From a candidate division LCP-89 bacterium B3_LCP (lineage in GTDB: Bacteria; Electryoneota; B3-LCP): a stretch of 64,000 nt of DNA. Position 1 is the first letter of the stretch. Each line of letters starts with the position of its first letter. The DNA lies in contig NJBN01000001.1 of assembly GCA_005223185.1 (NCBI GenBank), forward strand, positions 62,001 to 126,000. Direction: 5' to 3'. The notes under the pieces are model-generated. The model saw only the letters and a program-made list of their open reading frames with translations, ran no database searches and was not told the origin of the DNA. A program made the translations under genes and the position numbers. Positions 31,466 to 37,556 of the stretch are shown piece by piece.

Positions 31466-31672
31466 ATGATCGATGATGAAGGAAAGAAAGTACTTAAAGC
31501 GCTGGTAGGATTCACTGATCCAGCTTCAGGGAAGGACATCGCCAACGCTTCCGGTCTGGATGCCAAAGTTGTGTCCAATAAGATCAAAACCCTTAAGACC
31601 AAAGGCTTGGTGGACAGCCCGGCCCGCTGTAAATACGCCGTTACGGCAGCAGGCAAGGATGAATTGTCGTAA
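31466..31672 (+). CDS. Small winged-helix DNA-binding protein
   Basis: 68 residues: a single helix-turn-helix with wing. Helices SGKDIANASGLDAKVVSNKIKTL and the wing segment ARCKYAVTAAG resemble MarR/ArsR-like minimal wHTH domains of FCB and archaeal genomes. One Cys lies at the wing. AAGGGAAG precedes the ATG. Target unknown; the ZIP transporter gene directly upstream is a candidate. The repeat region starts 7 nt after the stop. Confidence 0.75.
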   Translation: MIDDEGKKVLKALVGFTDPASGKDIANASGLDAKVVSNKIKTLKTKGLVDSPARCKYAVTAAGKDELS

Positions 31673-31679
31673 TTCACCC

Positions 31680-31735
31680 GTCATTGCCCCATAGGGGTCC
31701 CTACGGGACGAGGAACGAAGAGACGAAGCAATCTC
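31680..31735 (+). repeat. Dispersed palindromic repeat, copy 2
   Basis: Starts GTCATTGCCCC and ends GACGAAGCAATCTC like the copy at 21453; the middle holds CCCCATAGGGG and GTCCCTACGGGAC, each a small palindrome. It lies at the convergent end of two units. Confidence 0.7.
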
Positions 31736-31780: not shown

Positions 31781-31820
31781 AAAAAGCGTCATTCTGGCTT
31801 GTCCAGAATCTGACGCTTTT
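31781..31820. repeat. Two-copy hairpin element, copy 1
   Basis: AAGCGTCA and TGACGCTT enclose a second stem TTCTGG/CCAGAA. The T-rich end also makes it a possible bidirectional terminator. The same sequence is found at 37514-37552, in both cases between convergent genes. Confidence 0.75.
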
Positions 31821-31839
31821 CTCTATAGGCTGACAAATG

Positions 31840-32131
31840 AGCCTCCTTCAGGGGGCTTTTACTATCCGTAGGCCAGTGCTTTAGCGCTGGACGTTCCTTA
31901 CACCACCCGGAAATAAATTTCCGGGCTAATTTTATGCTGTCCCCTTAAGGGGACGCTCTTCATCGCCATAGGATTAAAATCCTATGCCCTGATTTAAGGT
32001 AAATTGGTTAAAACCAATAGTGATGATAGTAATCTCACCAGTCGCTTCAGCGACTTGACCCTAAGTCTGGGCGTACGAATTTATTCGTGCGGTCCCCGGG
32101 AAATGGTGGACTGCGCTGTGCATAGCCCACC
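31840..32131. repeat. Train of nine different hairpins with regular pitch
   Basis: Hairpins at 31840-31857, 31873-31890, 31906-31925, 31939-31954, 31967-31986, 32003-32018, 32040-32055, 32073-32090 and 32105-32131. Stem sequences differ, but centre-to-centre spacing is 30-37 nt throughout and the first eight have four-base loops of the form TNNA (TTCA, TTTA, TAAA, TTAA, TAAA, TAAA, TTCA, TTTA). Stems are 5-8 bp with G-T pairs in some, for example CCAGTGC-TTTA-GCGCTGG. The region codes for nothing plausible. It resembles REP-like palindromes mobilised by Y1 (RAYT) transposases, but no transposase gene is in the window. Confidence 0.75.
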
Positions 32132-32181
32132 CTACAAAACTGGTTATGTAGGATGGACTAAACTAAGTGCGTTGGAGACGC

Positions 32182-32997
32182 TCATTCGGAACTATCCACC
32201 GCTTTCTGTTCGAGTTGGATTTCAGTATTTTTTACTTCATCGAAAGACTCAATCCACTGCTTTAGACGATTAGCATGGTCAGGCGTTAATTCATCGAAAT
32301 CGTTAACGTGGAGGTGAATCACTATAGATATATTGCTATTTCTTGATTGTTCAGGTAGTTTTTGTCCTTCCACCTCATTCTCCATGATAGGGCTACTATC
32401 CCCATTAGTCAGTATACCAAGCCCTGCCTGTTTCTCAATACCGTCGAGATTCCCCCGTGTCAGTACACCGCTCTCATCAACTACTATAAGGTCGGTGTAA
32501 ACAATAAAATCAATCAGAAAATCCAACGCATTAGAGTCCCCTTCGGGTGCACCACATTTAAGGGCTAACGATTTTCTTAGATCACTTTTTCTTAGACTTG
32601 AACGCAAGGCGAGATTCTGAATAGCCACCTGCCCGTACCAACAGCCAACAACAATCCTTCGAAGATGAGATTTGGCGCCATTCTCATCCCAAGCAGATTC
32701 GCGTGCAAACCGAATTGCGCTCTCGCTCGGCACATAATAGCCATACTTTGGCATTATTAAAATCCCCGACTCTTCCAGGAAGCGGTTATTGCTACTAACC
32801 GTTGTTGGGTTAATTCCTGCTGCGCCCGCAACATCCTTAAATTTAACCTCGGCCTCACCCCCATTCGAAGCGACAGCGTAGCCCTTGATGATCCTAACTA
32901 ACGTCTCTACGCTGGATCTCGGTAGTGCTTTCTCAGCAGCCAATTTGGCTGAACGAGCTTTTGCCTCAACTTCTTTTATAGTTTCATTCTCACTCAT
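32182..32997 (-). CDS. Winged-helix protein, partner of the P-loop ATPase (function unknown)
   Basis: 271 residues, not recognised. After a charged helical N-terminus, residues about 22-95 look like a winged helix (FKDVAGAAGINPTTVSSNNR, then ESGILIMPKYGYYVPS). A second helical domain follows (about 100-185), possibly another winged helix ending in VYTDLIVVDESGVLTRG. The tail holds a beta strand SISIVIHLHV-like segment (NISIVIHLHVNDFDELTPDH) and an acidic end. Its ATG lies inside the 3' end of the ATPase gene (8-nt overlap), so the two are translated together. It could be a DNA-binding or adaptor subunit controlled by the ATPase. Confidence 0.75.
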   Translation of the reverse strand: MSENETIKEVEAKARSAKLAAEKALPRSSVETLVRIIKGYAVASNGGEAEVKFKDVAGAAGINPTTVSSNNRFLEESGILIMPKYGYYVPSESAIRFARESAWDENGAKSHLRRIVVGCWYGQVAIQNLALRSSLRKSDLRKSLALKCGAPEGDSNALDFLIDFIVYTDLIVVDESGVLTRGNLDGIEKQAGLGILTNGDSSPIMENEVEGQKLPEQSRNSNISIVIHLHVNDFDELTPDHANRLKQWIESFDEVKNTEIQLEQKAVDSSE

Positions 32998-34372
32998 CGC
33001 CTTCTCCTATTTCCAATGCTAGGCTATATAGAAATGGGATTTCAAAACTATCAGATAGGTTTACAGCCCTTCTATCTTTGATTGCTATAGCCCCTACTCG
33101 TACGAGATCTGCTATTACTATATTTGCATCTAGCGAATCTTCTCTACCCAACGCCTTACTCAACTCTGAACGACTGAAGCAACGCGACGCGCTGCCCTTA
33201 AGTTGGTCATAAGTATCCTTATAGTTCTGAAATACTTGGAGAAAATCATTAAGCTTGGATGCGGCCGTGCGCTCCACTGCTTCGTGGATGGCCTGCCATG
33301 AGACCAGCTTTCCATTCGTAGGCGTATTGATATCCTGATTATTGAAGTTTTGTTGCGTCCTTTGTGCTGCGATGCAGAAGTTGATCAGGTCGCGTGGTAA
33401 AACATTACCATTTCCATCTTTGAGTAATTCATAAAGCTGATCAAAACTGTTAGGTATTTTTCCCTTCTTCCAATCGAAGATTTCGTTAATCCATTCTAAA
33501 CTTGTTGGAAAGGTTAGTAGATTGTCATGTGAAGGATGAAGCGGCCGAATTCGGTGAGCCAGTAATATTGCTAAATCTTCTCGGGACCACTCCAGATCCA
33601 GTTTTAAAGCGCTAAAATGGTCTTTGTTGACGTAAGTCAGCGAATGGTAAACATCGCTCCGAAAGAAGAGTTTAAATCGTATACGCTTTAGACGTAGTAA
33701 TTCCGCAACAGCCCTCATCAAATTGCTGAGTAGATCCTCAACATTATCATGATCGTGGCCGTTAATCGACACTTCATCGAGACTATCCAAGCAAATCCAG
33801 AGATCAGCACCTGATTCCTCAAACCATTGGTCCGCGGAATAGATTACATAGTCGATTTCAGTTGCTGCCAACGCTTTTTTAGGAGGAATTTCAGTCTTAA
33901 TGTGGTCACCTAATCCAACTGTAATTTTTATGGAACGCATTGATTGCCAGGCTGTAGGCACCTCATTCACCAAACCCCATCGAACCAGAAAACGCTCAAA
34001 GGCACTTCTTAATTCGCTTGGAAAATTAGGTTGTTCTAAGCATAAATTTGCTATAAGGCTTGCTATGTAGAAACGCCAGAGAATAACTTGTGAAGAAATA
34101 CCCAGTGGTTGTAGAGTGGCCCAATGATCTCGCAGTTTGGGCTCATCACTTATCCAAAGATTTGGTGGCGCAAAAATTGGGATTTCTGACTCCAGCTCAC
34201 TGAACATCTGAAATATCGCGCTCTTTCCTGCCCCCTTGGCACCCAAAATTATATAGGTTTTATCGGAGCAGGCAAGTGCGAATGACCCAGACCGATAAAA
34301 ATAATTTCTGAGTTGCCGTCGTTCCTGTTGGGCAGCACCCAATCCAAAATCTATTTTATCTAACATTTTCAC
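32990..34372 (-). CDS. P-loop ATPase, Sll1717-like family
   Basis: 460 residues. Walker A GAKGAGKS at 44-51, Walker B-like LWICLDSLDE at 191-200, and a helical C-terminal half with a possible winged helix at about 395-450 (CFSRSELSKALGREDSLDANIV). The order and spacing match STAND/KAP-like NTPases, in particular the Sll1717 group, whose function is not established; members are often in defence or accessory islands. No effector domain such as a nuclease, TIR or transmembrane segment is visible, so the downstream winged-helix protein or the ATPase itself must provide the output. First gene of the two-gene unit. Confidence 0.82.
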   Translation of the reverse strand: MKMLDKIDFGLGAAQQERRQLRNYFYRSGSFALACSDKTYIILGAKGAGKSAIFQMFSELESEIPIFAPPNLWISDEPKLRDHWATLQPLGISSQVILWRFYIASLIANLCLEQPNFPSELRSAFERFLVRWGLVNEVPTAWQSMRSIKITVGLGDHIKTEIPPKKALAATEIDYVIYSADQWFEESGADLWICLDSLDEVSINGHDHDNVEDLLSNLMRAVAELLRLKRIRFKLFFRSDVYHSLTYVNKDHFSALKLDLEWSREDLAILLAHRIRPLHPSHDNLLTFPTSLEWINEIFDWKKGKIPNSFDQLYELLKDGNGNVLPRDLINFCIAAQRTQQNFNNQDINTPTNGKLVSWQAIHEAVERTAASKLNDFLQVFQNYKDTYDQLKGSASRCFSRSELSKALGREDSLDANIVIADLVRVGAIAIKDRRAVNLSDSFEIPFLYSLALEIGEGDE

Positions 34373-37513: not shown

Positions 37514-37552
37514 AAAAAGCGTCATTCTGGCTTGTCCAGAATCTGACGCTTC
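37514..37552. repeat. Two-copy hairpin element, copy 2
   Basis: Same nested stems (AAGCGTCA/TGACGCTT and TTCTGG/CCAGAA) as at 31781. Lies between convergent T9SS genes and may end transcription on both strands. Confidence 0.75.
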
Positions 37553-37556
37553 TCTC

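Follow-up and report, generated by a model that had tools for sequence, protein, structure and literature searches.

A hairpin train in a candidate division LCP-89 genome is very probably a pile-up of end repeats of small single-strand-DNA mobile elements

We analyzed a stretch of 64,000 nucleotides (the window) from the genome of a candidate division LCP-89 bacterium, in which an earlier note had described a train of hairpins at positions 31840-32131. The train is very probably a pile-up of four end-repeat copies, derived from small single-strand-DNA mobile elements of three related families. It sits in the convergent gap between a small MarR-like gene (31466-31672, plus strand) and a pair of ATPase genes (32182-34372, minus strand). 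The ATPase gene at 32990-34372 matches the PADLOC candidate defence protein PDC-M28C (8e-15) and has a sub-threshold ORC-CDC6-like match; its partner (32182-32997) had no match in any search made. Upstream of the train lies a long palindrome, aaaagcgtca...tgacgctttt, at 31785-31821, and 24 nt from position 31800 occur again at 37533 (37533-37556).

Eight hairpins with stems of 6-8 bp, all of them with TNNA loops, were found in the 31840-32131 stretch:

H1, 31839-31858, loop TTCA
H2, 31873-31890, loop TTTA
H3, 31906-31925, loop TAAA
H4, 31938-31955, loop TTAA
H5, 31967-31986, loop TAAA
H6, 32003-32018, loop TAAA
H7, 32040-32055, loop TTCA
H8, 32072-32091, loop TTTA

The centre-to-centre steps from H1 to H8 are 33, 34, 31, 30, 34, 37, and 34 nt. 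Dinucleotide shuffles of the stretch (n = 2000) contained a mean of 0.06 and a maximum of 2 TNNA hairpins, which bears out the claim that the train lies beyond chance, and the RNA fold of the stretch gave z = -7.07 relative to shuffles. Outside the train, TNNA loops occur in 16 of the approximately 196 four-loop hairpins of the 64-kb window, with no second cluster of TNNA hairpins anywhere in it. Nine such hairpins had been claimed; eight of them are as described, but the ninth (approximately 32104-32132) is imperfect, lacks a TNNA loop, and falls outside all of the repeat matches, which end by 32099.

When the train was compared with its own genome by BLAST, it matched 41 places, and the ends of the matches fall at the borders of units. 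Alignments resolve the train into four two-hairpin units of approximately 53 nt each, which represent three dispersed families:

Unit A (H1-H2), 31838..31891, minus strand (the common TRAA orientation), family A; covariance model R2, 79.1 bits
Unit B (H3-H4), 31905..31957, plus strand, family B, a local relative of Acido-Lenti-1; covariance model R1, 70.7 bits
Unit C (H5-H6), 31966..32019, plus strand, left half of the C/D doublet; covariance model R3, 68.8 bits
Unit D (H7-H8), 32039..32091, minus strand, right half of the C/D doublet, of the same family as C but inverted; covariance model R3, 72.8 bits on the minus strand
C/D doublet (REPIN-like), 31966..32091, no strand assigned, two inverted two-hairpin repeats with a 19-nt gap

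Because three repeat families are present, a single nine-hairpin array was ruled out. With A taken in its minus-strand orientation, the units have a common layout of a P1 hairpin, a conserved spacer of 13-19 nt, and a P2 hairpin, with TRAA-type loops that become TTYA on the opposite strand. An invariant ATCCGTAG box (read on the plus strand) separates the hairpins of unit A, and the spacer of unit B is CTAATTTTATGCT. Families A and B are related, since the A model matches, on its minus strand, both unit B and Acido-Lenti-1-type units in other phyla. The earlier note had read the spacing of the hairpins as a fixed pitch; the centres are indeed 30-37 nt apart, but this is not a property of one array, because the similar spacing arises from the P1-P2 distance of 31-34 nt within each unit together with inter-unit gaps that happen to be 13, 11, and 19 nt. 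Its statement that the stems share no sequence was also only partly right: H5-H6 and H7-H8 are one family inverted, and all four units have dozens of relatives. Most of the C/D doublet, for example, matches at least seven other places in the genome by BLAST at 72-83% identity.

The stems differ between copies by paired substitutions. The stem covariation score was 0.466 for C/D (0.130 +/- 0.021 in shuffles and slid controls) and 0.228 for B (0.112 +/- 0.012 in the corresponding controls). The foot beside the hairpin is an invariant GTAG in family A (14/14) and TTAG-like in B, and there is none in C/D. In some copies of B and C/D, a piece of approximately 20 nt made of two mini-hairpins (gtccgaaggactcctatggag) takes the place of the P1 loop (L040:1474-1500, L045:782-820, L009:1340-1380, L038:1545-1590, L006:1610-1640, and others). 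This piece may be another tiny element that aims at hairpin loops, and model matches of 70-77 nt, including those of family A, may reflect the same insertion. Two mini-hairpins at 31689-31714 of the window (ccccataggggtccctacgggac) resemble both the loop-inserted piece and GTCCCTACGGGAC hairpins near tnpA in other phyla.

Covariance model searches of the 3.79-Mb genome (E <= 0.01) returned at least 69 B, at least 35 A, and at least 71 C/D matches. Clear copies number about 60 for B, 32 for A, and 65 for C/D, approximately 157 units in total, and family B is also present in 5/5 other genomes of the taxonomic family at 12-61 copies each. The outcome that the earlier note had named as fatal to its idea, that no similar structures would exist elsewhere, is contradicted by these numbers.

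The 157 units form 113 clusters: 74 single, 36 double, 1 triple, and 2 quadruple. Where units of the same family are adjacent, they are inverted, (+)(-), in 39 of 40 cases (B 18/18, C/D 18/18, A 3/4), and nearly all of the gaps in these inverted pairs measure 6-20 nt; besides the doublet in the window, the genome contains 17 adjacent inverted C/D pairs. The doublet is a minority form, however, with single units making up 74 of the 113 clusters, and this counts against our explanation. The single units would probably be remnants of doublets, left after the loss of one end.

All three families occur together only in the window train, genome-wide. Mixed-family adjacencies number four in the genome, against 0.5 expected under uniform placement; besides the window train, mixed stacks are found at C12:243345-243553 and C15:91451-91735 and in a genome of a sister genus, G001 (L058 10791-10949). 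This excess could mean that mixed trains are built by a specific mechanism, with one family inserting into or beside another, and that their order and pitch are functional. Such an assembly would be compatible with the pile-up explanation, but we consider it unlikely: about five mixed adjacencies are expected if the units are confined to one tenth of the genome (the one-tenth being an assumption), and the mixed stacks differ from one another in order, orientation, and gaps. The train is also missing from the homologous locus. We compared the ZIP neighbourhood with G001 and G002, and found that the lplA-ZIP order beside the train is kept in G001, where ZIP is 89% identical; at the place after ZIP in G001 the train is absent and other genes are present, although G001 is too diverged to give an exact empty site. 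The mixed stack at L058, of C/D and B units, lies elsewhere on the G001 contig that carries lplA-ZIP. Neither excision nor insertion was observed, and no pair of empty and occupied alleles with exact junctions was found, which counts against the explanation of the train as a pile-up of mobile end repeats.

The repeats flank Y1 HUH transposase genes, with a separate clade of these genes for each repeat family. The genome has 10 Y1_Tnp matches, eight of which were classified, as four IS200-like proteins (NCBIfam) and four RAYTs. The IS200-like tnpA genes of the window's genome (G000) are flanked by B units at L009 and L010, by A units at L012, and by diverged C/D units at L011; in sister genera, B units flank tnpA at L141, L147, and L158, A units at L144, L145, and L149, and C/D units at L154. 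In a tree of the TnpA proteins, the A-linked (98/94), C/D-linked (94/91), and B-linked proteins of the sister genera fall into separate groups. For the high-scoring C/D copies, the assembly contains no exactly matching tnpA, which counts against our explanation; the C/D candidate tnpA in G000 (L011/L156) is accompanied by diverged units, and its frame is interrupted by one stop.

The cognate TnpAs scored 70-86 bits with NF033573 (cut-off 55) and 99 bits with PF01797, and in an alignment of the L010 TnpA with IS608 TnpA the HUH and Tyr motifs coincide. Among 80 TnpAs retrieved with the four tnpAs as queries (see below), the motif Y---Q--HH is present in 76/80 and WQ in 80/80, along with a DHVH-like motif. 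Judged by motifs rather than by a subclass profile, the proteins carry the signature of TnpAY1 subclass 1.2 (Y---Q--HH, DH[IV]H, WQ, and a short core).

The hairpins might instead be REPs of classical RAYTs (class 2 TnpAREP), in which case the train would be a BIME. The invariant GTAG beside the hairpin in 14/14 family A copies is in keeping with this, as are the inverted doublets and mosaic clusters, which resemble those of BIMEs and REPINs (PMC3116915), and the genome does contain RAYTs. However, the cognate transposases scored only 21-30 bits with the RAYT model NF047646 (cut-off 80), yet they exceed the IS200 cut-off, and their motif is Y---Q--HH rather than Y---NP. The four RAYTs (L013-L016) lie among different hairpins, such as gcgggggCAAGcccccgc at L013, and the units have two hairpins instead of one, with GTAG missing from B and C/D. 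A RAYT as the partner of the train repeats was ruled out by the protein models and motifs, and we regard the BIME interpretation as improbable. The gcgggggCAAGcccccgc hairpins, which flank the RAYT gene at L013:1339-2001, are another repeat family, and a similar hairpin is found at L009:1266.

These results also bear on the origins that had been proposed for the train. The suggestion of Y1/RAYT-type transposition was sound insofar as all of the train families flank Y1 HUH tnpA genes, but the enzymes are IS200-like and not RAYTs; the tnpA-REP genes that were to be looked for do exist (L013-L016), but not beside the train's repeat families. The train is not a landing site, because the units are themselves transposon-end repeats. 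An array built by a hairpin-recognizing enzyme is correct in spirit, except that there are three enzyme/repeat families and one pile-up.

Family B connects the train to Acido-Lenti-1 (RF01687), which is catalogued as an sRNA gene from Acidobacteria and Lentisphaerae (Weinberg et al. 2010, PMC2864571). Both have a two-hairpin layout with a nearly identical spacer (CUAauuUAUgC), and family B contains two hairpins and a CTAATTTATGC-like spacer in the RF01687 order (cmscan, model positions 1-46). They differ in that unit B scored 20.8 bits with the Rfam model and the best local B copy 27.2 bits, below the gathering score of 37. The other Rfam matches in the region (Phe_leader and STnc500) were both below their cut-offs.

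Using the four tnpAs as queries against genome contigs, we retrieved 80 loci from Acidobacteria, Planctomycetes, Verrucomicrobia, Thermodesulfobacteriota, and others. Acido-Lenti-1 adjoins, in many phyla, the same transposase clade as family B: it matched at or above its gathering score (37-60 bits) in 37/80 of the tnpA loci. The remaining 43/80 had no match above the gathering score, which counts against our explanation. With L069 and its long array left out, 61 of 72 matches lie within 250 bp of tnpA, and no match was found more than 1 kb from tnpA in the 256 kb of flank searched beyond that distance. The nearest match within 250 bp upstream of tnpA is on the minus strand in 20/23 loci, and the nearest within 250 bp downstream is on the plus strand in 27/28, so that the usual form at these loci is an inverted pair enclosing the gene. 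Searches of whole genomes gave 2-103 matches in 12/12 genomes with a tnpA locus (the L118 genome had 103) and none in any of 14 control genomes.

The units around tnpA do not all have one polarity: they are mostly arranged as (-) tnpA (+) in other phyla and mostly as (+) tnpA (-) in the window's taxonomic family, and this too counts against our explanation. In an acidobacterial genome (G067), 8/8 readable doublets are (-)(+), with 91-103 nt between the units, the same polarity as most tnpA flanks of that group; in the window's family, the arrangement is mostly (+) tnpA (-) (upstream 9/13, downstream 10/13), and the doublets are (+)(-) as well. In each lineage, then, the polarity of the doublets is the prevailing polarity of the ends at tnpA, which fits the doublets being gene-less versions of the element.

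Direct trains of units also occur. At L069:2382-5588 (Desulfococcaceae HSG8), approximately 38 direct tandem units with a period of approximately 69 nt lie on both sides of tnpA, and L072, L076, and L082 have shorter trains. CRISPR-like spacers were ruled out for the L069 array, in which the stretches between units are a few recurring sequence types and not unique.

Among related Acidobacteriaceae, tnpA is found in homologous flanks, which suggests that the gene is kept by descent while the adjoining region changes. RAYT genes are likewise kept by descent. The downstream unit is missing at L138, and inverted units at L115:3460-3960 and L136:3460-4080 enclose small open frames that differ between the two loci, with a syntenic tnpA adjoining; these frames look as if they were cargo genes carried by the ends.

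The alternative that the train, or the B/Acido-Lenti-1-type unit, is a structured non-coding RNA gene whose linkage to the transposase is secondary has to be weighed against these distributions. RF01687 is filed in Rfam as an sRNA, the stem changes are paired, and the RNA fold is strong. On the other hand, copies occur at dozens of unrelated sites per genome, the units flank tnpA on both sides and form inverted doublets, Acido-Lenti-1 matches are concentrated beside tnpA, and the homologous locus in the sister genus has no train; stem covariation is, moreover, also displayed by REPINs (PMC3116915). We therefore consider an RNA gene very improbable, slightly more so than the BIME interpretation. 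The structured non-coding RNA envisaged in the earlier note may arise as a side effect, but the family that gives the best Rfam match behaves like the ends of a transposon.

The elements that we propose resemble several known systems and differ from each of them. Members of TnpAY1 subclass 1.2 have been described as generally lacking terminal IS200 secondary structures, as low in copy number, and as occurring mostly in Cyanobacteria and Bacteroidetes (PMC6006769). The TnpAs analyzed here are similarly short and IS200-like, with DH[IV]H, WQ, and Y---Q--HH, but they are flanked by dispersed two-hairpin inverted repeats, and their hosts are Acidobacteria, Planctomycetes, Verrucomicrobia, Zixibacteria, Desulfobacteria, and others. 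REPINs consist of two inverted repeats a short spacer apart, have compensatory changes in their stems, occasionally cluster in tandem, and are associated with a dedicated Y1 gene; their single units are likely remnants (PMC3116915). Our units share with them the inverted doublets at high copy number (about 157 units), but they differ from REPIN/REP-RAYT systems in that each unit contains two hairpins and the enzyme is an IS200-like TnpA, not a RAYT. The TnpA is a Y1 HUH transposase, as in classical IS200/IS605 elements, which have one subterminal hairpin per end and no terminal inverted repeats, in contrast to the two-hairpin inverted repeats found here.

TIRtrons (TIRYT) are Y1 genes in inverted repeats, some of them doubly palindromic and some belonging to dispersed families, in Acidobacteria such as Koribacter (PMC3733652). 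They are similar to the present elements in that a Y1 gene is flanked by inverted repeats of a dispersed family. A later classification assigned most of the TIRYT proteins to TnpAY1 subclass 2.1 and the rest to 2.2 and 2.5, whereas the TnpAs here have the class 1.2 motif and fall below the RAYT cut-off. The text of PMC3733652 does not mention Acido-Lenti-1 or Rfam. TIRtrons are set apart here by their description and not by their Figure 9 sequences, and some, for example the Koribacter TIRs, may be the same element. TnpAY1 class 3 contains planctomycete and acidobacterial Y1 genes whose flanking secondary structures are atypical and present in high copy number, with about 600 of them in Solibacter (PMC6006769); Y1 genes flanked by high-copy structures are common to both, but the TnpAs here lack the class 3 Y motif (YV[VI]..EQ, which is accompanied by another W motif).

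From these comparisons, we propose that each unit would serve as an end recognized by a Y1 HUH transposase belonging to the IS200-like subclass 1.2. The autonomous element would be an inverted pair of ends enclosing tnpA, and the common gene-less form, an inverted pair with a short gap (a REPIN/MITE-like doublet), would be non-autonomous. One C/D doublet, a single A, and a single B would have settled side by side, by chance, between the convergent genes of the window. IS608 TnpA binds hairpins in single-stranded DNA, and cuts and joins beside them. By analogy with this and with REPINs, TnpA dimers may attach to the hairpins of two inverted units while the DNA is single-stranded, cleave it at a set distance from them, and join the ends elsewhere, and the units would move in this way. 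The train itself is ordinary and would have no role of its own, except that it might terminate transcripts or stabilize RNA; convergent hairpins could also end transcripts.

More broadly, Acido-Lenti-1 and its relatives are probably, although with less certainty than attaches to the pile-up in the window, the two-hairpin ends of subclass 1.2 transposases. They would form a REPIN-like system that arose from IS200-type TnpA, is separate from RAYTs, and is present in many phyla; in it, tnpA would often be kept in place while its ends spread, and the ends would sometimes enclose other genes (L115, L136). The general kind is already known from REPINs (PMC3116915), TIRtrons (PMC3733652), and IS200-like Y1 proteins (PMC6006769). 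A connection of Acido-Lenti-1 with orphan subclass 1.2 transposases seems to be new: in our search of openly available main texts, we found no literature that ties Acido-Lenti-1 to transposase ends, or such ends to subclass 1.2. We suggest that the annotation of Acido-Lenti-1, an Rfam sRNA family, be changed to mobile-element ends. The orphan subclass 1.2 Y1 transposases, which were described without IS-like ends, would thereby gain a likely DNA substrate, and a puzzling structure becomes a testable rule. They would also provide a second case, beside the RAYTs, of a single-strand transposase that is seemingly kept by its host while its hairpins spread.
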